A stretch of 57,150 bases of DNA from Phycisphaeraceae bacterium (GTDB lineage Bacteria; Planctomycetota; Phycisphaerae; Phycisphaerales; Phycisphaeraceae). The position numbers and the translations under genes were made by a program. Positions 583 through 11,787 of this stretch are shown here, piece after piece (within the stretch, counting starts at the first letter, position 1; each line of letters opens with the position of its first letter). The notes under the pieces are model-generated. The model saw only the letters and a list, made by a program, of their open reading frames with translations, had not been told where the DNA came from and did no database searches. Where the stretch lies: positions 1 to 57,150 of the forward strand of contig JAFIFY010000085.1 in assembly GCA_020831765.1 (NCBI GenBank), in the 5' to 3' direction.

Positions 583-2352
583 ATGAAGACGACGCTAAGT
601 GGATTGCTGGTGTTCATTCTGGTTTTCGCGATGGCGCCATCGGCCCTCGGCGAGGATGGGAGCGACGAGGTGAAGCGACTCGTGGATCGGCTTCGGCCTG
701 AGGTCCGATATGCCGATTACACGCCGCGCTTCAGCGTCGAGCGTCGGCGGATCAGCTTTCGGCATCTTCGCGGCGATGTCCCCTGGGATTTCTTCATCAT
801 CAAAGACGGCGATCGCCACGTCGCCCTGATTCCGATTCAGGGCTTTCACAGTGGCGTGATCTACATTCAGGATTTCCGTCCCGACCACGCACCCAGGCGG
901 CTCGATCTCCCCAGCGAGCGCTGGCACATCGACACCGCCGTCGGAAGTGAACTTCGCACCGATGCCTATATCCCGGTTCCCGAAGGTCAGCGGGCGGAAA
1001 CCTATCACTTTGAAGTGAAGAACGATCGAGTGATCCTGACGCGGAAGTACGAGGGCACGGCACGAATCAACAAATGGACCCATCGCTCCCGACATGATGA
1101 GACGATCAACGTGACCAACACGTTCGTACTTTACTGCGACCCCGTTCATGGCTACGTCGTGGATGGAACATACGATGTCCGCGTCAAGCCTCGACCGCGG
1201 GATTTCGAGTTCGCCAGCCTGGCCACGCACGGCCGTTATTCGCTATGGCCGGGGGAATCGACGGTGGATCGGACGGTGGTGACCCCCGTGGGTGCCGAGG
1301 GTTTCGATGGCTACTACCAGAACCTGGCGGCGATCGCCAACGCCGGACGGAACCTCACGGTCCGCGATGGCGGATTCGCGGCGTTTCTCAATGAGCGGAC
1401 CGGCTGGAGCCCGGCGCTGACCGTTCGGGGCGGCAACGCTCAGATGATTGTCTGCAATGCCCATGCGGACCTGGACTTCGCGATGCGTTGGCCCGCGGAA
1501 ATTCCCGCGGATGAAGACGGATATTTCCGGCACATCGTGCATCATCGATTGCTGGCGCTCCCGCCGGAACTGACCCGGCATGTCTGGGACCGGATGAACG
1601 TGCGATGGACCGATCAACGCCGTGTTCAGATACGCATTGGTGAGCGTGAAACCTTTGACGATCAGCCCCTACCGCTGACCACACGCGTGCGGGGCATCAC
1701 CTTCACCTCCGGCAGCGCACCGATTTCAACCGATCACTCGCGGACGCCCGGAGGCCGGTCCCTGGTGGTCGATGGCACGGTCTGGCCGAACATCCCGCAG
1801 ATCAATCTCAAGCCCGACACCCGGTACCGCTTGGAGGCGGTGGTGAAGATGCTCCCGCTTTCCGATGAGGAGATCGCCCAGCGCACGGCGGCGGCGCGGG
1901 AGCGTCACCATCGGGAGTTGGAGCGGCTGAGGCGGCAACTGGCGGAGGCCGAATCGAAGCTGTCCGAAGGGCGGCAAGGTGATCAGCAGCTTCGTACACA
2001 GATGCGGTCGTTGCTCCAGCGCCTGAAGGACATTGAAGAGTTCGAGGGGCTTGCCGAGCCGGAAGGTTTCATCCGCGCTGACTTTTACGAATGGTCGCCA
2101 CATTCAGGCGACTGGGTGCTGCGGCAACAGACCAATAGCGCCCGGCCGGATGCGGATCGTTGGCAGAAGCTTGAGCTGGAGTTCACCGCCCCGGCCTGGG
2201 GACCGTTCGTGAACATCGTCTTTGTCTCGCGAAATGCCCGGATGTACATCGATGAGTTCGCCTTCGTGCCGCTGGAGGCCGAAGGCGAACGAGCCTCAAT
2301 TCCGGTTGAACCGGGGTCGTCGGCCGGGATCGGGGTCTCGGGCGAGCGCTGA
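583..2352 (+). CDS. Secreted protein with coiled coil and C-terminal beta-sandwich-like region, unknown function
   Basis: Unrecognised protein of 589 residues. An in-frame ATG lies at 577, but the GGAG at 572-575 sits 7 bases before the second ATG at 583, so 583 is the better start and gives MKTTLSGLLVFILVFAMAPS, a typical Sec signal peptide ending near 'SALGED'. Residues about 30-420 are rich in beta-strand patterns. A heptad-rich charged coiled coil follows (about 425-480, around 'ERLRRQLAEAESKLSEG'). The last ~100 residues (FIRADFYEWSP..., WQKLELEFTAP, MYIDEFAFVPLE) resemble the jelly-roll fold of carbohydrate-binding modules, in which a closing 'I/VDEF' strand is common; this is inference from pattern only. 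Export to the periplasm or surface is likely. The downstream neighbour is convergent. Confidence 0.75.
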   Translation: MKTTLSGLLVFILVFAMAPSALGEDGSDEVKRLVDRLRPEVRYADYTPRFSVERRRISFRHLRGDVPWDFFIIKDGDRHVALIPIQGFHSGVIYIQDFRPDHAPRRLDLPSERWHIDTAVGSELRTDAYIPVPEGQRAETYHFEVKNDRVILTRKYEGTARINKWTHRSRHDETINVTNTFVLYCDPVHGYVVDGTYDVRVKPRPRDFEFASLATHGRYSLWPGESTVDRTVVTPVGAEGFDGYYQNLAAIANAGRNLTVRDGGFAAFLNERTGWSPALTVRGGNAQMIVCNAHADLDFAMRWPAEIPADEDGYFRHIVHHRLLALPPELTRHVWDRMNVRWTDQRRVQIRIGERETFDDQPLPLTTRVRGITFTSGSAPISTDHSRTPGGRSLVVDGTVWPNIPQINLKPDTRYRLEAVVKMLPLSDEEIAQRTAAARERHHRELERLRRQLAEAESKLSEGRQGDQQLRTQMRSLLQRLKDIEEFEGLAEPEGFIRADFYEWSPHSGDWVLRQQTNSARPDADRWQKLELEFTAPAWGPFVNIVFVSRNARMYIDEFAFVPLEAEGERASIPVEPGSSAGIGVSGER

Positions 2353-3258: not shown

Positions 3259-3497
3259 GGGCACATCTTATCGACCGGCCCGGAGAAGAGACCGGATTTC
3301 GCCCGGCAAAGCTCAGTCGTCCGATCATCCGCCAGTCATGAAGCATCCGGGCATCTTTTCTGAAAGGATATGGGTCCATGGAACCGCCTTCCCGGTGGTG
3401 CGTCCAATCAGGTCAGAGATGCTTCTCGAGATGCATCTCAACGGCCCGTGGAACGCTGATCCCCGTGGTTGATTGTTTTTTCGCCGGAGTCATGATC

Positions 3498-6400
3498 ATG
3501 AAGTCACTTTCGTCGCTTTTCGTCTTTCTGACGGCCGCTTTCGCATTGAACCTTGTTGCCGCGGCCCGGCCGATCGACTTCGTCGAGGATTTCGCCCTCG
3601 CTCCGGATCGGGAGGAAGTGCTCAAGGAGCTGATCCCCGGCTCGAGGGAGTTTTACTACTACCACGCGATCCACTTCCAGCAGACTGGTCAGCTCGACAA
3701 GGTGCGGGAGTTGATGCGGCCCTGGACGGACCGGCACCCCAACGACCCGATGCGGGCGGTGATCGAGAATCGCCAGGCGCTCTTGCAGTACACCACGCAG
3801 CCGCGACAGAGCCTGGACTTCATCCGGCGACGCCTGGGCATTCAATTCAACCATCAACGTGAGCGGCTCGATGCGCGGCCGGACTTTCCGACCGTGCTGG
3901 ATCAGGACCTGATCAGCCGCGACACGCTCACCCGTCGCGCGCTGAACCTTGGTGGGGGAAGGATGGTTTCGAGGTTTGAGGATCGGGCATTGGAGTGGGT
4001 CGCGACTCTTCAACTCAATGAGGATCAGCGGCGCGATCTCCTGCGGCGGTTGTCCCGGCCGGATCTGGCCAATCTTGTCGACCTGGTGATGACCGATCTG
4101 GCCTCGCCTCGATCCGGAGGTTTCGGCGCCGCGGGTATTTCGGTCCATAGTCAGATGCTCACGGCTCAACTCGATGAAATGCTTCGACGGAACCGCGATC
4201 TGATCAATCAGACGCATTTCGTGCATATCTACCTGGCGAGTCTGGCCCCATCGGCGGATGTGGATATCAAGCATGACCTGGAGGCCAGCGAGGCTCACCT
4301 CCGTCGGCTATGGGCATTCGCCCGGAACCTGCCCGATGCCCATAACTCGATCAAGGCCCATGTGCTGTATCAGTTGCTGGACCTTGGCCGTCGCAAGGGC
4401 GAGTACGACCGGGCGCTCTTTGAAGCCTACATCCAGATTCCCCGCCAGACCGGCTACATCCGGCCTGAATTGCTGCAGCGCGGCCAACGCCAACAGTCCA
4501 TCGCCAACCTCAACGCCGATTTCAACCAGTTCACGCTGCATTCACGCATCCGGGATGATGAACCGCTGGTGCGTGAATATCTGCTTCACTTTTTCGTGCG
4601 GATGGACTCCTGGCGGCCGTTTGAGCCTTACATCCGCGACACCTACCTCAAGCCTCTGTTCGCCGAGGCCAAGATTCTGGCCGGCGTGGGGGACATGGAA
4701 GAATGGGCATCGCTGATTTCACCGGCCCAGCTTCAGCGCTTGCGCGATCGCGTGGATATCGATTTCGTCGCCACCAATCGCACGATCTTCGATAGCGGCG
4801 ATGCGGTCTCGCTGGCACTTGATATCAAAAACGTCGAGCGCCTGAGCGTTCGCATCTTCCAGATCAACACGCTCAACTATTACCGCGCTGAGGGCCGGGA
4901 GGTGGATACGGACATCAACCTCGACGGCCTGGTCGCGGCCGAGGAGCTGACATTCAACTACAACGAGCCGGCATTGCGGCGGGTCCGCCGCGCCTTCGAC
5001 CTCCCGCAGCTTGAAGGGCCGGGTGTGTGGGTGGTCGAGTTCATCGGCAACGGCATGAGCAGCCGAGCGGTGATCCGCAAGGGGCGGCTGCGCTATATCG
5101 AGCAGCCCAGCGCCGCCGGTCACCTGATCCGTATCGTGGATGAGCGGAACCAGCCCCGTAACCGGGCGGAGGTCCTGCTGGATGGGCATCGCTACACGGC
5201 GGCCGAAGACGGCCTGATCCGCATTCCCTTCACCAATGAACCGGGCAAGTCCAGGATCATCCTCATCGATGGCGACCTGGCATCGCTGGACCATCTGGAT
5301 CACATGGCCGAAGAGGCCGAGCTCGAAGCGGCTTTCTATGTGGATCGCGAACAGTTGATCCGCTTCGGCAAAGCGGACATGGTCATCCGGCCGAGGCTCA
5401 TGATCAGTGGACAGCCGGCGCCGCTGGAGCTTCTTGAGGATGTCCGCCTGACGATCCATGCCACCGATCTGGACGGCACCACCAGCACGCTGGACATCGC
5501 GGATTTCAAACTCGATACGACTGGCCAGACCGTTCAGACCATCAACGTCCCGCAGCGATTGCGGAACATGACGGCCGAACTGACCGGCAGGGTGCGCATC
5601 ATCAGTAAGGGCACCCGGGAGACCGTCAGTCAGCACTTCTCGCTGGCGATCAATCAGATCGACCAGACCGATCACATCATGGCGCTGCATCTTGTGCCCG
5701 CGGTGGACGGCTATCTTCTGGAATTGCGCGGCAAGAGCGGTGAGCCGCTTGCCGATCGCCCGGTCAACGTCGCACTCAAGCACAAGGACTTCCGTGATCA
5801 GGTTCGTGTTTCGCTCAAGACCGATGAGCAAGGCCGGGTCGATCTGGGCCGGCTCACTGATATCGACCACATCATCGCCACCACACCGCAAGGCCACTCC
5901 GAGCGCTGGACGCTGCCGGAAGATCGCATCCGTCAGCGGCCGGTCATCCATACGATCGCCGGGCGGACGGTCCTGGTGCCGTATTTCGGCGAGCGTGAAC
6001 AAGCGTCCCGCGAGGAACTGAGCCTGCTGAAAACCACCGGGTGGCAGGGACGGCCGGACCGGTTCATCGGTGATGCTTTCGAGCGCCTGGCCATCGATGA
6101 TGGGTATATCCAGATTCGCAACCTGACGCCGGGCGACTATGTGCTGACGATCAAGCCGTTCCAGGAAGTGGTGCGCATCCGCGTGACCGAAGGCGCGATG
6201 CGACATGGCGTGGCCATGGGCCGCCACCGGCATCTGGAAGAGGTTGCAGGCCCCCCGCAGCATCTGACGGCATTGGAAGTGGACGAGGATCGGTTGCGCA
6301 TCCGATTGCGCAACGCCGCTTCGGGGGCGCGGGTCACGGTCGTGGCATCACGCTACGCCCATGCGGTGAACCCGTTCGACTGGCTGGCGCTGGATACCGG

Positions 6401-9400
6401 AACGACACCGGCGGCCGTCACGCTGCCCGGTTATGAGTCGCTGTATGTGGCCGGGCGCGATCTGGGCGATGAATATCGCTATATCCTCGATCGCAGGACG
6501 GCCATGCGCTTCGCCGGCAACATGCTCGAGCGTCCGGGCATCCTCCTGAACCCCTGGGCGGTGCGGGATACGCGGACGACCCGGCAGGATCCATCGAGTG
6601 GAAGCGACTTTGAGCGAACGGCCCGGGAAGCGCCGCGGACGGTAGCGCCCACCCGGCCCTCGGATCGGCGTCAGGAATCGGTCATGGAGCACTTTGCCAA
6701 CTATGACTTCCTGCCGACTCCATCCAAGGTGCTGGCGAATCTGCGGCCGGATGACAATGGGGTCATCACCGTTCCGCTGGAGGATCTGGGCAATGCCGGG
6801 TTCATCCAGGTTCTGGTCAAGGATGAATTGACGACCCAGGTCAGGCACCTGGTGATGGACCCGGTTGACTATCGGCCCCGCGATATCCGGCTGGCCGAGG
6901 CGTTGGACACCGATCGGAAGTTCACGCAGCAGATGCGGATCACCGCGCTCAAAGCCGGCGATGAGCTCTCGATCGAGGACATGGCCAGCAGCCGATTCGA
7001 GATTTACGATAGCCTTGGCCAGGTCTTCAGGCTCATGCTGACGCTCAACGATGCGATGCCGGAACCGGACCCCCGGCTTGGCGAGTTTCGCTTCATCACC
7101 AACTGGCCGGACCTCGAAGCCCAGAAGAAGCGCGAGCTTTATTCGGAGTTCGCCAGCCATGAATTGCATGTCTTCCTTTACTTCAAGGATCGCGAGTTCT
7201 TTAATGAGGTGGTCCGCCCGTATCTGATCCACAAGAAGGACAAGACCTTCATCGATCACTGGCTCCTGGAGCATGATCTATCCGATTACCTCGATCCCTG
7301 GGCGTTCCGGCGATTGAACGCGGCCGAACGTGCCCTGCTGGCCCGGCGTCTGGCTGAGCAGCGGGAAGCGCTGCGGTCGCACATCATCAACTGGCATGAT
7401 GCCGTGGTCGCGCCGGATGTCGAGCGTTTCAATCGGCTGTTCCTGCTGGCGCTGGAAGGCGGAGCGCTGGAAGGCCGCGCGGGCGCTGCCATGCTCAGGG
7501 AAATGGGCGAGCTTGATGATCGAAGGCAGTTCGCCGAAGGTGGGCGCGAGCAACTTGAGCTGCGCCGTGCCCGGATGATGGCCGATCCGGCCGAGTTCTC
7601 GGGGCGAGTGGTCGCTCCGGGCGAGCGCGAGGCGGTGCCCCCTCCGGCTGGGCAGTCGGACGCGGCTTTCGCTCGAACTGGCGGAGTGCGCGGAATGCTT
7701 GGGGACGAGGACGGACAGGAAGCGATGAAGCGGATCGCGGAAATGCGTCAAGAGGCCCAGCGGTACTTTCAGGCGCTGGATTCGACCAAGGAGTGGGCCG
7801 AGAACAACTACTACCATCAGGAAATCCAGAAGCAGGTCGCTGACCTGATCCCGATCAATCCGTTCTGGCGGGATTACGCGCTGCATGAAGAGGGCCCGTT
7901 CCTCTCATCGAGCTTCAACATGGCCACGGCCAGCGCCGCGGACATGCTGCTGGCTCTGGCCGTGCTCGATCTGCCGTTCGAGTCTCCCGAGCACGAGACG
8001 GAGCTGGAAGATGGCCGCTGGTCGATCAGCGCGGCCGGCAACGCGATCATCTTCCATGAGGAAATCCGCCCGGCCCAGCAGGCCGAAGGGACGCCGATTC
8101 TCGTCAGTCAGAATTATTTCCGGCACGGCGACCGATATCGGCAGGTCGGCAATGAGCGCGTGGATAAGTTCATCACCGAGGAGTTCGGAACCCACATCGT
8201 CTATGGCGCGCAACTGGTGATCACCAATCCGACATCCTCGCGCCGCAAGCTTGACCTTCTGACCCAGATTCCGCCGGGATCGATTCCCGTCCTCAGTGGA
8301 CAGGTCACGCGGGGCCGGCATATCGATCTTGCGCCATTCAGCACGATGACGCATGAGTATTACTTCTACTTCCCAGCGCCCGGGCAGTTTACGCAGTATC
8401 CCGCGGGCCTGGCCCAGGAAGCGCAACTGCTGACATCCACCGGCGCCTTCACCTTCAACGTGGTGGAGCGACTGACGCAGGTGGACCGGGAATCGTGGGA
8501 TTACATCAGCCAGCACGGTAGTGAGGAACAGGTTCTTGAGTTCCTTCGGACGCAGAATATCGAGGGCGGGCTGGTGAATCTGCCGCGTATCGCCTGGCGC
8601 ATGCGCGATGAAGCATTCTTCCAGAGCGTGCTGGACGTTCTGTCAGCGCGGCATGTGTTCGATCCCGTGCTGTGGTCGTACGGCATCCATCACAATCACC
8701 TTCCGGCGATTCGCGTCTACCTGCGCCATGCCGAAGCCTTCCTGGCCGGCAGCGGACCATATCTGCGAAGCCCCCTGGTGGATATCGATCCGATCGAGCG
8801 GCACTGGTACGAGCACCTGGAATACAGCCCGCTGGTCAATGCCCGGGCCCATGAACTGGGCCGGCGTCGGCAGATTCTCAATGACCGGTTCCACACGCAG
8901 TATCACAAGCTGATGAATGTGCTGGCGCATAAGTCGGAGTTGACCGACGCCGATCGCCTGGCGGTGACCTATTACCTGCTGCTCCAGGACCGTTATGAGG
9001 AAGCCATCGCCATGCTGGACCTTGTCGATCGGGAGCGGATCGCCACACGGCTGCAGTACGACTATCTCAAGGGATGGTGCGGCTTCCTGACCGGCGAACT
9101 GGACCATGTCGCGGCGCTGGTCGAGCGGTATGCCGGTCACCCGGTCGATCGGTGGGGCAAGCGGTTCGCCGTGATGGGCGAGCATTTGGCCCAGGTTCAA
9201 GGCGAGCGTGAATTGGATGCGGACCTCGATCCCGATGATCGAAGTCGGCGAATGGATCAACTGGCGGCGCGGCAGCAGATGCTCGAATTGGAGATCGAAG
9301 GCGCTGCGCTCAAGCTGGAGCACCGCAATCTTCCGACGGTGACGGTGAACTTCTACCTGATGGACCTGGAGCTGCTGTTCAGCCGCGAGCCATTCATGCA

Positions 9401-9848
9401 GAATCACTCCGATCAGTTCTCCTTCATCCGGCCGAATCGTTCGATGCGGGTTGAGCTGGGTGCGGATGCTTCATCCAGCGAGATCGAGATTCCTGAAGAC
9501 CTTCGCAGCGCCAATCTGATGGTCGAGGTCGTGGGCGGATCGATTCGCCGTAGCAGCCCGTACTTCTCCAATGCGTTGGCCGTGACGATGGTGGAGAACT
9601 ACGGTCAGTTGAACGTGACCCGCCGCGCCGATGGAAAGCCGGCTTCGGCGGTCTACATCAAGGTCTTTGCGCGGATGAACGACGGGCAGGTTCGGTTCTA
9701 CAAGGACGGCTACACCGATCTGCGCGGCCGGTTCGATTACGCCACACTGAGCACCAATGAGTTGGATCATGTGCGGCGATTCAGCATCCTGATCATGAGC
9801 GATGACCACGGTGCGATCGTTCGTGAAACCGCGCCGCCGAGGCGATAG
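3498..9848 (+). CDS. Giant secreted protein with macroglobulin-like (MG) domains
   Basis: 2,116 residues. GGAG at 3486-3489 favours the ATG at 3498 (MKSLSSLFVFLTAAFALNLV), a Sec signal peptide; ATGs at 3492 and 3378 are open upstream. Residues ~20-400 are helical and repeat-like ('REFYYYHAIHFQQTGQLDKV' is reminiscent of TPR). Residues ~418-535 (ATNRTIFDSGDAVSLALDIK..., VWVVEFIGNG) match the MG1/MG2 pattern of bacterial alpha-2-macroglobulins, followed by several Ig-like segments. Around residue 1560-1640 is a well-ordered stretch ('VYGAQLVITNPTSSRRKLDL', 'HEYYFYFPAPGQF'). I see no CGEQ thioester motif, so if it is a macroglobulin relative it is of the thioester-less kind. Family assignment is moderate. 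It appears monocistronic, followed by a structured gap. Role: possibly periplasmic or surface protease trapping or scaffolding, which is inference. Confidence 0.85.
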   Translation: MKSLSSLFVFLTAAFALNLVAAARPIDFVEDFALAPDREEVLKELIPGSREFYYYHAIHFQQTGQLDKVRELMRPWTDRHPNDPMRAVIENRQALLQYTTQPRQSLDFIRRRLGIQFNHQRERLDARPDFPTVLDQDLISRDTLTRRALNLGGGRMVSRFEDRALEWVATLQLNEDQRRDLLRRLSRPDLANLVDLVMTDLASPRSGGFGAAGISVHSQMLTAQLDEMLRRNRDLINQTHFVHIYLASLAPSADVDIKHDLEASEAHLRRLWAFARNLPDAHNSIKAHVLYQLLDLGRRKGEYDRALFEAYIQIPRQTGYIRPELLQRGQRQQSIANLNADFNQFTLHSRIRDDEPLVREYLLHFFVRMDSWRPFEPYIRDTYLKPLFAEAKILAGVGDMEEWASLISPAQLQRLRDRVDIDFVATNRTIFDSGDAVSLALDIKNVERLSVRIFQINTLNYYRAEGREVDTDINLDGLVAAEELTFNYNEPALRRVRRAFDLPQLEGPGVWVVEFIGNGMSSRAVIRKGRLRYIEQPSAAGHLIRIVDERNQPRNRAEVLLDGHRYTAAEDGLIRIPFTNEPGKSRIILIDGDLASLDHLDHMAEEAELEAAFYVDREQLIRFGKADMVIRPRLMISGQPAPLELLEDVRLTIHATDLDGTTSTLDIADFKLDTTGQTVQTINVPQRLRNMTAELTGRVRIISKGTRETVSQHFSLAINQIDQTDHIMALHLVPAVDGYLLELRGKSGEPLADRPVNVALKHKDFRDQVRVSLKTDEQGRVDLGRLTDIDHIIATTPQGHSERWTLPEDRIRQRPVIHTIAGRTVLVPYFGEREQASREELSLLKTTGWQGRPDRFIGDAFERLAIDDGYIQIRNLTPGDYVLTIKPFQEVVRIRVTEGAMRHGVAMGRHRHLEEVAGPPQHLTALEVDEDRLRIRLRNAASGARVTVVASRYAHAVNPFDWLALDTGTTPAAVTLPGYESLYVAGRDLGDEYRYILDRRTAMRFAGNMLERPGILLNPWAVRDTRTTRQDPSSGSDFERTAREAPRTVAPTRPSDRRQESVMEHFANYDFLPTPSKVLANLRPDDNGVITVPLEDLGNAGFIQVLVKDELTTQVRHLVMDPVDYRPRDIRLAEALDTDRKFTQQMRITALKAGDELSIEDMASSRFEIYDSLGQVFRLMLTLNDAMPEPDPRLGEFRFITNWPDLEAQKKRELYSEFASHELHVFLYFKDREFFNEVVRPYLIHKKDKTFIDHWLLEHDLSDYLDPWAFRRLNAAERALLARRLAEQREALRSHIINWHDAVVAPDVERFNRLFLLALEGGALEGRAGAAMLREMGELDDRRQFAEGGREQLELRRARMMADPAEFSGRVVAPGEREAVPPPAGQSDAAFARTGGVRGMLGDEDGQEAMKRIAEMRQEAQRYFQALDSTKEWAENNYYHQEIQKQVADLIPINPFWRDYALHEEGPFLSSSFNMATASAADMLLALAVLDLPFESPEHETELEDGRWSISAAGNAIIFHEEIRPAQQAEGTPILVSQNYFRHGDRYRQVGNERVDKFITEEFGTHIVYGAQLVITNPTSSRRKLDLLTQIPPGSIPVLSGQVTRGRHIDLAPFSTMTHEYYFYFPAPGQFTQYPAGLAQEAQLLTSTGAFTFNVVERLTQVDRESWDYISQHGSEEQVLEFLRTQNIEGGLVNLPRIAWRMRDEAFFQSVLDVLSARHVFDPVLWSYGIHHNHLPAIRVYLRHAEAFLAGSGPYLRSPLVDIDPIERHWYEHLEYSPLVNARAHELGRRRQILNDRFHTQYHKLMNVLAHKSELTDADRLAVTYYLLLQDRYEEAIAMLDLVDRERIATRLQYDYLKGWCGFLTGELDHVAALVERYAGHPVDRWGKRFAVMGEHLAQVQGERELDADLDPDDRSRRMDQLAARQQMLELEIEGAALKLEHRNLPTVTVNFYLMDLELLFSREPFMQNHSDQFSFIRPNRSMRVELGADASSSEIEIPEDLRSANLMVEVVGGSIRRSSPYFSNALAVTMVENYGQLNVTRRADGKPASAVYIKVFARMNDGQVRFYKDGYTDLRGRFDYATLSTNELDHVRRFSILIMSDDHGAIVRETAPPRR

Positions 9849-9862
9849 CCGCCGGAGGCGGT

Positions 9863-9958
9863 CCAAGCGCGGGTGGGCGACGCCGCCTGAGCGTCGGAAC
9901 GTCCGCAGGAGGTGACAGCGTACACGCCGCGCTTGGGCCGCGCATGGGTGTCAGCGGC
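9863..9958. repeat. Nested inverted repeats downstream of the giant gene
   Basis: CCAAGCGCGG at 9863-9872 is perfectly complementary to CCGCGCTTGG at 9927-9936, a 10-bp stem enclosing 54 bases. Inside it CGACGC (9878-9883) pairs with GCGTCG (9891-9896). Just outside, GCCGC (9937-9941) pairs with GCGGC (9954-9958). The element starts 15 bases after the stop codon of the giant gene and would be the 3' end of its mRNA. There is no U-tract, so it is not a standard intrinsic terminator; it could protect the mRNA 3' end. Stems are seen directly; function is inference. Confidence 0.5.
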
Positions 9959-10008
9959 GGATTGTGAAGGCTTGATCGATCGGGATTCCGCCCCGTCACC
10001 CCGAGCGC

Positions 10009-10101
10009 AAAAAAACCCGTACCGCGCCCTAAGGCAGCGGTACGAGCTTCCGGGGGCTCGAAGTTATGGGAACGGCTGGGCCTTGCCCTGTCGCTCATTC
10101 C
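10009..10101 (-). ncRNA. Putative ~93-nt small RNA with intrinsic terminator
   Basis: Transcription leftward from about 10101 is predicted from the promoter at 10108-10135. The RNA would begin GGAAU and this 5' end pairs with GUUCC (10073-10069), enclosing a GGGC-AAG-GCCC hairpin (10088-10078). A second hairpin CGAGC...GCUCG lies at 10060-10043 and shares two bases with the terminator stem. The 3' end is an intrinsic terminator: an 8-bp stem (10044-10037 with 10025-10018), an 11-base loop that can form three more pairs, then GGG and seven U (10015-10009). Predicted start, 5'-terminal stem and terminator fit together well. It matches no RNA family I know: I checked for tmRNA, 6S, SRP RNA and RNase P hallmarks and saw none. 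Confidence 0.55.
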
Positions 10102-10107
10102 ACCAGA

Positions 10108-10135
10108 ATGGTAGCCTTCGCGCAACGCTTGTCAA
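10108..10135 (-). promoter_or_regulatory. Sigma-70-type promoter of the putative small RNA
   Basis: On the minus strand TTGACA (10135-10130), a 16-base spacer and TACCAT (10113-10108). The -35 box is a perfect consensus and the -10 box keeps TA...T. The predicted start is about 10101-10100, at a GG. Confidence 0.6.
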
Positions 10136-10141
10136 GCGTTG
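10123..10141. promoter_or_regulatory. 19-bp palindrome over the -35 box (candidate operator)
   Basis: CAACGCTTG, one central T, then CAAGCGTTG: a perfect 9+1+9 inverted repeat. It covers the whole -35 box of the small-RNA promoter, so a dimeric protein bound here would block that promoter. The symmetry and overlap are seen; the operator role is inference and the regulator is unknown. Confidence 0.5.
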
Positions 10142-10409
10142 AAGCGTGCCACGAGTCAGAAAGTAGAGAATTCTTAGTCCGCACGCCAAAAATGCGGCAA
10201 GAACGGAAGTTTGCACCGGGTGTGGATTTCGACATCGGGAGATTTGCCTCTGGCGGCAATTGCGGCAACCATCCGCATGGGACTTTCGCGCCCGGTCGGG
10301 TTAGAATGGCGGAGTTGGGGGAATAAGCGGACCTTTTGTCGTGTTGCCCAACTTGTGCGAGGCGTGACAGTGGGTCATGCATCGTTTTCGCTAACCGTGG
10401 AGGCGTTTA

Positions 10410-11644
10410 ATGAGAACTTTTCGAATTCGAGTGAGCGTGATGGCGGCGCTGCTGCTGGCCGTGGGGCTGGCCGTCAGTCCGGCCATGGGCGATGCCAAGT
10501 GGCTGGAATCGTACGACGAGGCCATCAAGATGGCCCGGGAATCCGGCAAGCCGGTGATGATCAATTTCACGGGCAGTGACTGGTGTGGCTGGTGCATCCG
10601 ACTGGATCGGGAGGTGTTCGCGACCTCCGAGTTCGCCAAGTGGTCGTCGGATAACGTGGTGCTTCTGAAGTTGGATTTCCCGCGGCGAACCCCGATGCCG
10701 AGCAACTCCAGCGGCGGAACCGTCCTCATCTGGAACGCTACGGCGTTCGTGGATTTCCCACGATCCTCTTCATCACCGCCGAGGGTGAGGCCTTCGGGCG
10801 CACCGGCTACGTCGCCGGCGGACCGGAGCCGTGGATCGCCCAGGCCAATCAGCAATTGGAAAACCGGCCCCGGCCGGCCACGATCGAGACCACCAGCGAC
10901 CTCGAGCGTGCGGTGGCTCAGGCCAAGTCCCAAAGGAAACCCCTGCTTGTGCTGGCCGACGTGGGCGCGGAGCGGACCGAGGCTTTCGACAAGTTGATCA
11001 ACGATGCGGCCCTGGCGGGCGTGGCCAATGATCATTTTGTCGTGGTCCACGTCCAGCGATCCGGCGAGAAGGCCACACCGCAAGCCGACGTGGATCGTGC
11101 GGTGAAGCTTCTGGATGATCTCGAAGCCGAGAAGGGCGACGGTCGGCTGGCTGTGGTGGATGTGTCGGGCCGCCAACCCCGACTGCGTTGGAGCGCATCG
11201 AAGGTTCCTGAAGCCGCGGACATGCGAATCACGCTGATCAAGCAAATGCCCAGGGTTCCATACCGAGGCGGTTGGATCGAGAACTATTCGCAGGCTCAGA
11301 TCATCGCCGCGCAGACCGGCCGCCCGATCATGCTTTACTTCACCGGCAGTGATTGGTGCCCGCCTTGTCAGGCCTTTGACCGGAACATCCTCTCCACCCG
11401 GGAATTCATGGCATACGCTCGGGAGAATCTCGTGCTGGTCAAGCTCGATTTTCCGCGAAACGCTCCGCAGTCCGAGGAACAGAAGCGGCACAATCAGCAG
11501 GTTCAGCGACAGTATGAAGTCCGCGGCTTTCCGACCATGATCTTCATGGACCCGAAGGGCAAGGAACTGGACAAGACCGTCGGCTTTCCGGGTGGCACGC
11601 CCGCCGCGTTCGTTGAGCGGCTGAAGAAAGCCGCCGAAGGCTGA
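10410..11644 (+). pseudogene. Secreted triple thioredoxin-fold protein, interrupted by a -1 frameshift
   Basis: The ATG at 10410 follows GTGGAGG (10397-10403). The product begins with a signal peptide (MRTFRIRVSVMAALLLAVGL) and a thioredoxin domain with the active site WCGWC (about Cys58/Cys61). After 'LDFP' near 10680-10693 the frame breaks: the matching continuation (EQLQRRNR, then ERYGVRGFPTILFIT) lies in the -1 frame and runs to 11644. A single missing A in CGAACCCC (10687-10693) would restore 'RRNPDAEQ', parallel to 'RNAPQSEEQ' in the last domain. The restored protein would have 411 residues: thioredoxin domain 1 (CGWC), a middle degenerate thioredoxin-like domain without CxxC, and a third with WCPPC followed by 'YEVRGFPTMIFM'. 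Such proteins are periplasmic disulfide oxidoreductases. The break may be a true mutation or a sequence error; there is no obvious slippery heptamer. Confidence 0.75.
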
Positions 11645-11708
11645 GGATCGCGGATATCCGACTCGTTATGGCGAGCGAAGAATCGCCGCATTACCCCGAC
11701 CCCCGAAA

Positions 11709-11744
11709 GCACCCGTGCCGGCTTCGCGCCGGCCGGGTGTTTTT
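11709..11744 (+). terminator. Intrinsic terminator after the thioredoxin-like gene
   Basis: CACCCG (11710-11715) pairs with CGGGTG (11734-11739) and GCCGGC (11717-11722) pairs with GCCGGC (11728-11733) around a TTCGC loop, with one bulged T, followed by five T (11740-11744). It lies 65 bases after the stop codon. Confidence 0.8.
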
Positions 11745-11787
11745 CAATGCATGCCCGAATCGCCGATTTCGGGCGATCCGGCGAATA

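Follow-up and report, generated by a model that had tools for sequence, protein, structure and literature searches.

The stretch of DNA analysed here, referred to as the window, covers positions 1 to 57,150 of contig JAFIFY010000085.1 from a Phycisphaeraceae bacterium (assembly GCA_020831765.1). The locus of interest lies on the minus strand of the window, between a 2156-aa ORF (3378-9848, plus strand), which is convergent with it and matched no Pfam family at 1e-5, and a thioredoxin-like gene that begins at 10410. The sequence of the thioredoxin-like gene (10410-11644, plus strand) is divided between ORFs 10410-10997 and 10856-11644, which overlap, differ in frame and both encode a thioredoxin-like domain; this may represent a frameshift, an assembly error or two genes. 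Its relatives showed no synteny.

In this gap, the promoter scan found a -35 box TTGACA (10130-10135) and, 16 nt away, a -10 box TACCAT (10108-10113), together matching 10 of 12 consensus positions on the minus strand. It was the only sigma-70-type site in the region 9500-10700, against 0.4 expected. The predicted start lies near 10101 on the same strand, and the resulting small RNA would be 93 nt long (10101 to 10009). The folding energy of this RNA was -42.4 kcal/mol (z -3.15), and one of 200 shuffles was as good. Its 5' GGAAUG pairs with an internal GUUCC region to form a compound hairpin (10069-10101; the GGAAUG...CGUUCC region with an inner GGGC/GCCC), which gave a z-score of -2.25 when folded alone. 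The second hairpin, with a run of seven U (10015-10009), forms an intrinsic terminator (10009-10050) that was also recovered by a simple terminator scan, for which 1.3 such sites were expected by chance in 9500-10700. The C run of the RNA is located outside both hairpin loops, in the motif GCCCCCGGAAG (10047-10057, minus strand), which ends at the foot of the terminator stem, is common to a second copy in the same genome and to relatives, and is the seed proposed below. A previous sequence-only reading had placed a small RNA here, and its TTGACA-N16-TACCAT promoter, its start, its 5' stem paired with GUUCC and its seven-U terminator were all found where it had put them. On the other hand, it had counted two further hairpins beyond the 5' stem, whereas the fold has two hairpins in all. 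The most conserved part of the RNA, GCCCCCGGAAG at 10057-10047, and the presence of several copies per genome were both absent from that reading.

When the 133-nt segment was compared with the window genome by nucleotide BLAST, a second place was found (C55, E 1.3e-5). The same segment matched three of 60 relatives, in every case within the last 49 nt of the query, which correspond to the motif and the terminator. These homologs were obtained from the window sequence alone, with no chosen motif, and are free of the circularity that selection by motif brings; they bear out the small RNA where nucleotide alignment in related genomes had been proposed as a check. Upstream of them, promoters and 5' hairpins that are unrelated in sequence were seen by eye at similar places.

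The pattern GCCCCCGGAAGCN{15,42}GGGTTTT was found at 23 places in 18 of 151 genomes of the order, and the reversed pattern in one. A first covariance model (R1) used 19 of these 23 places; three were excluded by eye for unlike terminators (L087, L090 and L099), and L091 as a near copy of L089. R1 matched 40 of 298 genomes of the class at E 0.01. For a second model (R2), we took 54 R1 matches from 53 loci, out of 68 loci of which 15 were set aside as duplicates, weak, shifted or motif-less. At E 0.001, R2 matched 64 of 397 genomes of the class; 61 of these belong to the order of the window genome. The window RNA was matched by R1 at E 3.0e-10 and by R2 at E 1.9e-8 (10010-10065, whole genome), with the window copy itself included in the alignments behind both models. 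Within the family of the window genome, R2 matched 37 of 40 genomes (28 of the 29 good ones), with 1 to 11 matches each. The window genome has five matches, on C55, C104, C185 and, on the contig of the window, at C176:10010-10065 and, weakly, at C176:11691-11745. The last of these (plus strand) has the variant motif ACCCCCGAAAG and a best promoter of 6/12, lies 46 nt past the end of the thioredoxin-like ORF and may be merely the terminator of that gene. An altered motif was also seen in the copy at L177.

Among the genomes listed, 20 were negative for R2; all of them belong to the order (18 to f2 and 2 to f5), so that the family is patchy there. Three positives lie outside the order: G209 has the motif, G376 is without it, and G354 has a stretch that, as printed, does not differ from one in G014, so this positive may be contamination. 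In a sample of 294 genomes of the phylum, 12 were positive and 11 of these were in the order; the match in the twelfth covered only model positions 17-54, which leave out the motif. Of 12 named genomes, some of which had been taken from relatives of the thioredoxin-like gene, one was positive, a Phycisphaeraceae bacterium that is the same as G041 (three places, same coordinates), and no R2 match was found in the other 11 (two Planctomycetota, Verrucomicrobiota, Lentisphaerota and Flavobacteriia). Two patterns scanned against viral contigs matched 0 and 2 contigs; the stretch common to these two contigs, judged by eye, is without a U run and belongs to an ordinary phage contig, and we rejected them as viral copies.

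Rfam 15 gave a single match on 9500-10700 of the window (E 3.1; 16 bits, where the cut-off is 69), which is not credible. On 20 of the 23 pattern loci, searched at E values up to 1, it gave four matches, none on the RNA match itself; a match to rne5 in L098 (E 0.027; 21 bits, where the cut-off is 180) extends up to the start of the motif. The view that the RNA belongs to no known family has thus held at a permissive threshold, for the window and for 20 loci of relatives. In the open-access literature, no such sRNA of Phycisphaerales appeared among the matches listed. C-rich small RNAs are a known kind; within the searches made, this family is new, as are its layout and its spread. As a sequence feature the small RNA is real, and the window carries one copy of an undescribed RNA family. 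The window RNA stands above chance because it is conserved in other genomes.

In the alignment of copies, the family shows a G-poor leader, then CCCCCGGAAG, then a terminator hairpin of varying sequence, and the window copy has all of these (G-poor leader, CCCCCGRAAG, terminator hairpin and U run). The string CCCCG[GA]AA is present in 132 of 133 matches, a count that is partly circular, since the pattern and the models selected for the motif. Outside this anchor, the preceding base is C in 130 of 132 copies, the one before it is G in 111, and the following base is G in 123; at eight leader positions, G occurs in only 4 to 12 of the 132 copies each. In the terminator stem, 98.7% of the cells are paired over 19 copies, and 9 of 16 pairs have changed on both sides, when slid controls gave 39-51%. 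Over 54 copies, in an alignment that was fitted to the model and leans towards it, 96.2% are paired, against 45-55% in slid controls, and 13 of 16 pairs differ on both sides. Of 500 shuffles, 40 had as many doubly changed pairs, but none equalled the alignment in the other four measures. Compensatory changes, which had been named as a further check on the RNA, are present in the terminator stem, the equivalent of that in the window; any retained terminator would covary likewise.

We surveyed the 130 nt upstream of all 133 matches for a sigma-70-type pair; no match was dropped, and close relatives each contributed their own copies to the count. A promoter of at least 9/12 precedes 56 copies and is missing from 77. 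With 20 Markov shuffles per copy the expectation was 6.7, and the opposite strand gave 6. Among the 56, the distance from the -10 box to the motif is 13-18 nt in 30, 27-56 nt in 19 and elsewhere in 7. Both the excess of promoters and the two distances were measured independently of the search motif. The sequences thus predict a short form, in which the RNA would start about 8 nt ahead of GCCCCC, and a long form with room for a 5' hairpin. With 50 nt between the -10 box and the motif, the window copy falls in the range of the long form. In 32 copies of the long form (promoter of at least 8/12 at 27-75 nt), the 5' segment had a mean z-score of -2.3, with 26 below -1 and 19 below -2; as single-sequence z-scores these are suggestive only. 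The 5' hairpin is thus common in long-form copies, and its sequence in the window copy is not conserved. When six long forms were folded as a consensus, it was not recovered, since their 5' sequences cannot be aligned. Taken together, the conserved copies, found both within the window genome and throughout the order, support the claim of a small RNA at this locus: they share the linker motif and the terminator, and many of them have a predicted promoter at a preferred distance.

The -35 box of the window copy is covered by a perfect 19-bp inverted repeat, CAACGCTTG-N-CAAGCGTTG (10123-10141). The sequence-only reading had taken it for the operator of a regulated RNA. The repeat is perfect and its position is as described, but its role as an operator finds no support, since it does not recur in the genome or in the homologs. 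The regulon expected from further copies did not appear: the window genome has one perfect site, that of the window, and two sites with 3 mismatches, and a control word has one site. Perfect inverted repeats with 9-bp arms occur 8 times in the window and 2 to 8 times (mean 5) in 10 Markov-shuffled sequences; as they are about as frequent as in shuffles, only the position of the palindrome is notable. In the 55 remaining copies with a promoter of at least 9/12, no inverted repeat over the -35 box has arms of more than 7 bp. Arms of 7 bp, the longest elsewhere among the 56 scored promoters, were reached or exceeded by 9 of 1120 shuffled segments. We rejected the palindrome as an operator because it has no regulon in the window genome at up to 3 mismatches, and only the window copy stands out among the 56 promoters. 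From the sequences compared, it is unique to the window copy and looks like a local oddity; it may be a private operator, its position being the sole point in favour.

The copies have no fixed orientation relative to their neighbours. By crude ORF calls, the nearest upstream ORF is on the same strand in 71 of 128 copies and on the opposite strand in 57, and the nearest downstream ORF is on the same strand in 70 copies and on the opposite strand in 57. Since the neighbours have no fixed orientation, the element is not the leader of one gene. A cis-regulatory leader or attenuator was rejected because there is no fixed downstream gene on the same strand, and the large ORF downstream in the window is convergent. 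The copies are likely intergenic, with 55 of 500 crude ORF calls around them overlapping the match.

These orientations also bear on a reading without any regulatory RNA, according to which the motif and hairpin are a type of terminator that the order favours after genes, and the promoters are there by chance. The weak match at 11691-11745, which follows an ORF end and lacks a good promoter, would suit this reading, as would the 71 of 128 upstream ORFs on the same strand. However, the other 57 face the opposite way, promoters are about 8-fold in excess over shuffles and at two preferred distances, 5' hairpins are predicted, and the matches in the 37 positive genomes of the family are far fewer than the genes that need terminators. 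Accordingly, we consider this reading very unlikely.

One cluster of ORFs recurs on the opposite strand at 19 loci, upstream of the copy in 15 and overlapping it in 4. In one locus tested (L210), Pfam identified it as a PTPS-family gene, and an ACT-domain gene, an ABC transporter gene and ruvC lie close by. This recurrent neighbour suggests that the sRNA gene at these loci is an old chromosomal gene. Among the 25 largest clusters, the window copy has no neighbour in common with the copies of other genomes.

Other copies lie beside recombinase and defence genes. In G030, five copies end modules that are 84-88% identical to one another. Four of these modules have a complete tyrosine recombinase gene (467-468 aa aligned; assigned by Pfam on one of the G030 recombinases) 48-56 nt upstream of the match, and the fifth has only a stretch resembling the last 84 residues of the recombinase. 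The similarity among the five modules stops at the end of the sRNA, with different sequence beyond. In G069, two copies are 3.1 kb apart with a GmrSD-type gene between them and helicase and restriction genes beyond. One of these copies and the helicase and restriction genes beyond it resemble a G030 module with 94% identity over 6.4 kb, so that there the similarity continues past the sRNA. In G045 (C18; L150 and L250), two same-strand copies about 6.2 kb apart have type I restriction genes between them, and the C185 copy of the window genome has a HipA-type gene at a distance of 497 nt. Among the G030 and G069 loci L244-L249, one has a prim-pol gene, and SNF2/PLD helicase genes lie beside the G069 copies. 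The modules with tyrosine recombinases in G030 and G069 are possibly a family of defence islands.

Considering these neighbours, the element could be mainly an attachment site or the end of mobile elements, with the promoter and terminator insulating the cargo. The five similar G030 modules ending at the sRNA are in line with this, as may be the restriction, helicase, GmrSD-type and HipA-type genes near copies. A search of loci of 14-17 kb showed no direct repeat at the far end of the recombinase modules, only one genome has copies beside which such a recombinase was found whole (in the other loci searched, tblastn gave fragments or distant matches), and copies with a conserved chromosomal neighbourhood exist. 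We regard this explanation as unlikely. A combined view seems to us somewhat less remote, though still doubtful: a C-rich sRNA independent of chaperones would be a single chromosomal gene in some genomes and multiplied in others (up to 11 matches), integrative elements would use or carry a copy at their end, and host and element copies would share the seed. If this is true, the sRNA network of the host would extend to mobile islands that carry restriction, GmrSD or HipA genes. The copies linked to recombinases make it testable whether an sRNA gene serves as a landing site or a passenger of defence islands.

Our preferred reading, which we consider probable on comparative grounds, is a trans-acting sRNA family that is conserved in Phycisphaerales, has four or five copies in the window genome, carries an exposed C-rich seed and would work in the manner of 6C/B11 or RepG. 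RNA polymerase would make an RNA of about 55-110 nt, whose ends would be protected by the terminator and, in long forms, by the 5' hairpin. The C-rich stretch would act as a seed and pair with G-rich stretches of a few mRNAs, and this pairing would block translation or change decay without Hfq. Several copies with different promoters could then feed different signals into one seed. We infer base-pairing with G-rich mRNA stretches from the exposed C run beside the terminator and from the host being without Hfq: a search with PF17209 at E 0.001 found Hfq in 0 of 81 genomes of the order, including the window genome, and in 5 of 14 control genomes. The window RNA is accordingly no Hfq-dependent sRNA in the sense of having an Hfq in its host.

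The search for targets of this seed, which is the weakest step of the reading, found none. Upstream of 371 crudely predicted starts, the seed complement was not enriched; GGGGG occurred 15 times sense and 24 times antisense and is, if anything, rarer on the sense strand. The complement TTCCGGGGGC was 3 to 77 times as frequent as the reversed word in six of seven genomes and occurred 5 times against 0 in the seventh, the reversed word being a weak control and the matches including G-rich repeat arrays. Over-representation of TTCCGGGGGC was seen in G000 (258 against 12), G030 (230 against 3), G069, G005 and G034. Among 30 fetched loci of TTCCGGGGGC, we found no preference for UTRs or for a strand and no consistent gene context, and one was an sRNA copy. 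In 100 kb of the window genome unselected for the word, TTCCGGGGGC occurred 5 times, 3 of them being sRNA copies; the shorter TTCCGGGGG also occurred 5 times, and its permutations up to 12 times (mean 2.3). Neither the context of TTCCGGGGGC nor the sense-strand count of GGGGG thus singled out targets of the seed.

The motif could also act by binding a protein. In this case, the RNA would be transcribed and would sequester or carry, for example, CsrA, bound at the GGA of CCCCCGGAAG. CsrA was matched in 41 of 41 genomes of the order, with two matches in the window genome, and Hfq in none of the 81 searched. Of 132 aligned copies, 127 have GGA in the motif. The remaining five copies read CCCCCGAAAG and lose the GGA of the motif, which, as far as the alignment goes, speaks against CsrA as the main partner. 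The motif has a single GGA, at the foot of a stem, whereas the RNAs known to sequester CsrA carry several GGA loops, and a C run would not be needed for CsrA. We therefore think it improbable that the RNA is chiefly a ligand of this kind. RNAs of the CsrB/RsmY type are CsrA-binding RNAs; ours resembles them as a stand-alone RNA with a terminator and GGA in a lineage with CsrA, and differs from them in the single GGA of its motif, which 5 of 132 copies lack. In G030 (C1), a divergent sRNA copy is followed on its own strand, after about 230 nt, by a csrA match (326865-327017 and 327250-327306, minus strand).

With respect to the preferred reading of a base-pairing sRNA, several known RNAs are comparable. 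For 6C/B11 of actinobacteria, C runs are proposed to pair with G-rich mRNA sites, in hosts with no known RNA chaperone, and B11 acts on a 5' UTR with six G as the possible partner of its C-rich loops (PMC10470900). The present family is alike in being a small RNA with a C run in a host without a known chaperone, and differs in that 6C/B11 has two C-rich loops, whereas here one C run lies in the linker before the terminator and is followed by GGAAG. No kinship was detected, as Rfam gave no match at the permissive threshold, and in its fold the 93-nt RNA does not have the two hairpins with C-rich loops that mark 6C/B11. In Firmicutes, sRNAs of the RoxS/RsaE type use C-rich single-stranded motifs as seeds against ribosome binding sites. 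Ours is set apart from these by phylum and by the absence of an Rfam match. RepG of Helicobacter pylori uses a C/U-rich terminator loop, and its host is, to our knowledge, without Hfq. RepG targets a G-repeat in an mRNA leader (PMC8295292). Our family resembles it as a C-rich sRNA in an Hfq-less host, but its C run precedes the terminator hairpin, and our searches found no G-repeat target.

The family is present in most sampled genomes of one family and in many of the order, in a group that is apparently Hfq-less. Its constant C-rich stretch, combined with copies that appear to be differently driven, offers a handle on how small RNAs work in Phycisphaerales, and with the covariance model the family can be annotated easily. 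Two arrangements of copies were observed in addition. In G023 (C5:198611-198836, minus strand), three sRNA-like matches adjoin one another within about 230 bp. In L108, an sRNA copy (1499-1554, minus strand) lies 73 nt from an RNase P RNA gene (1026-1425, plus strand), the two being on opposite strands.
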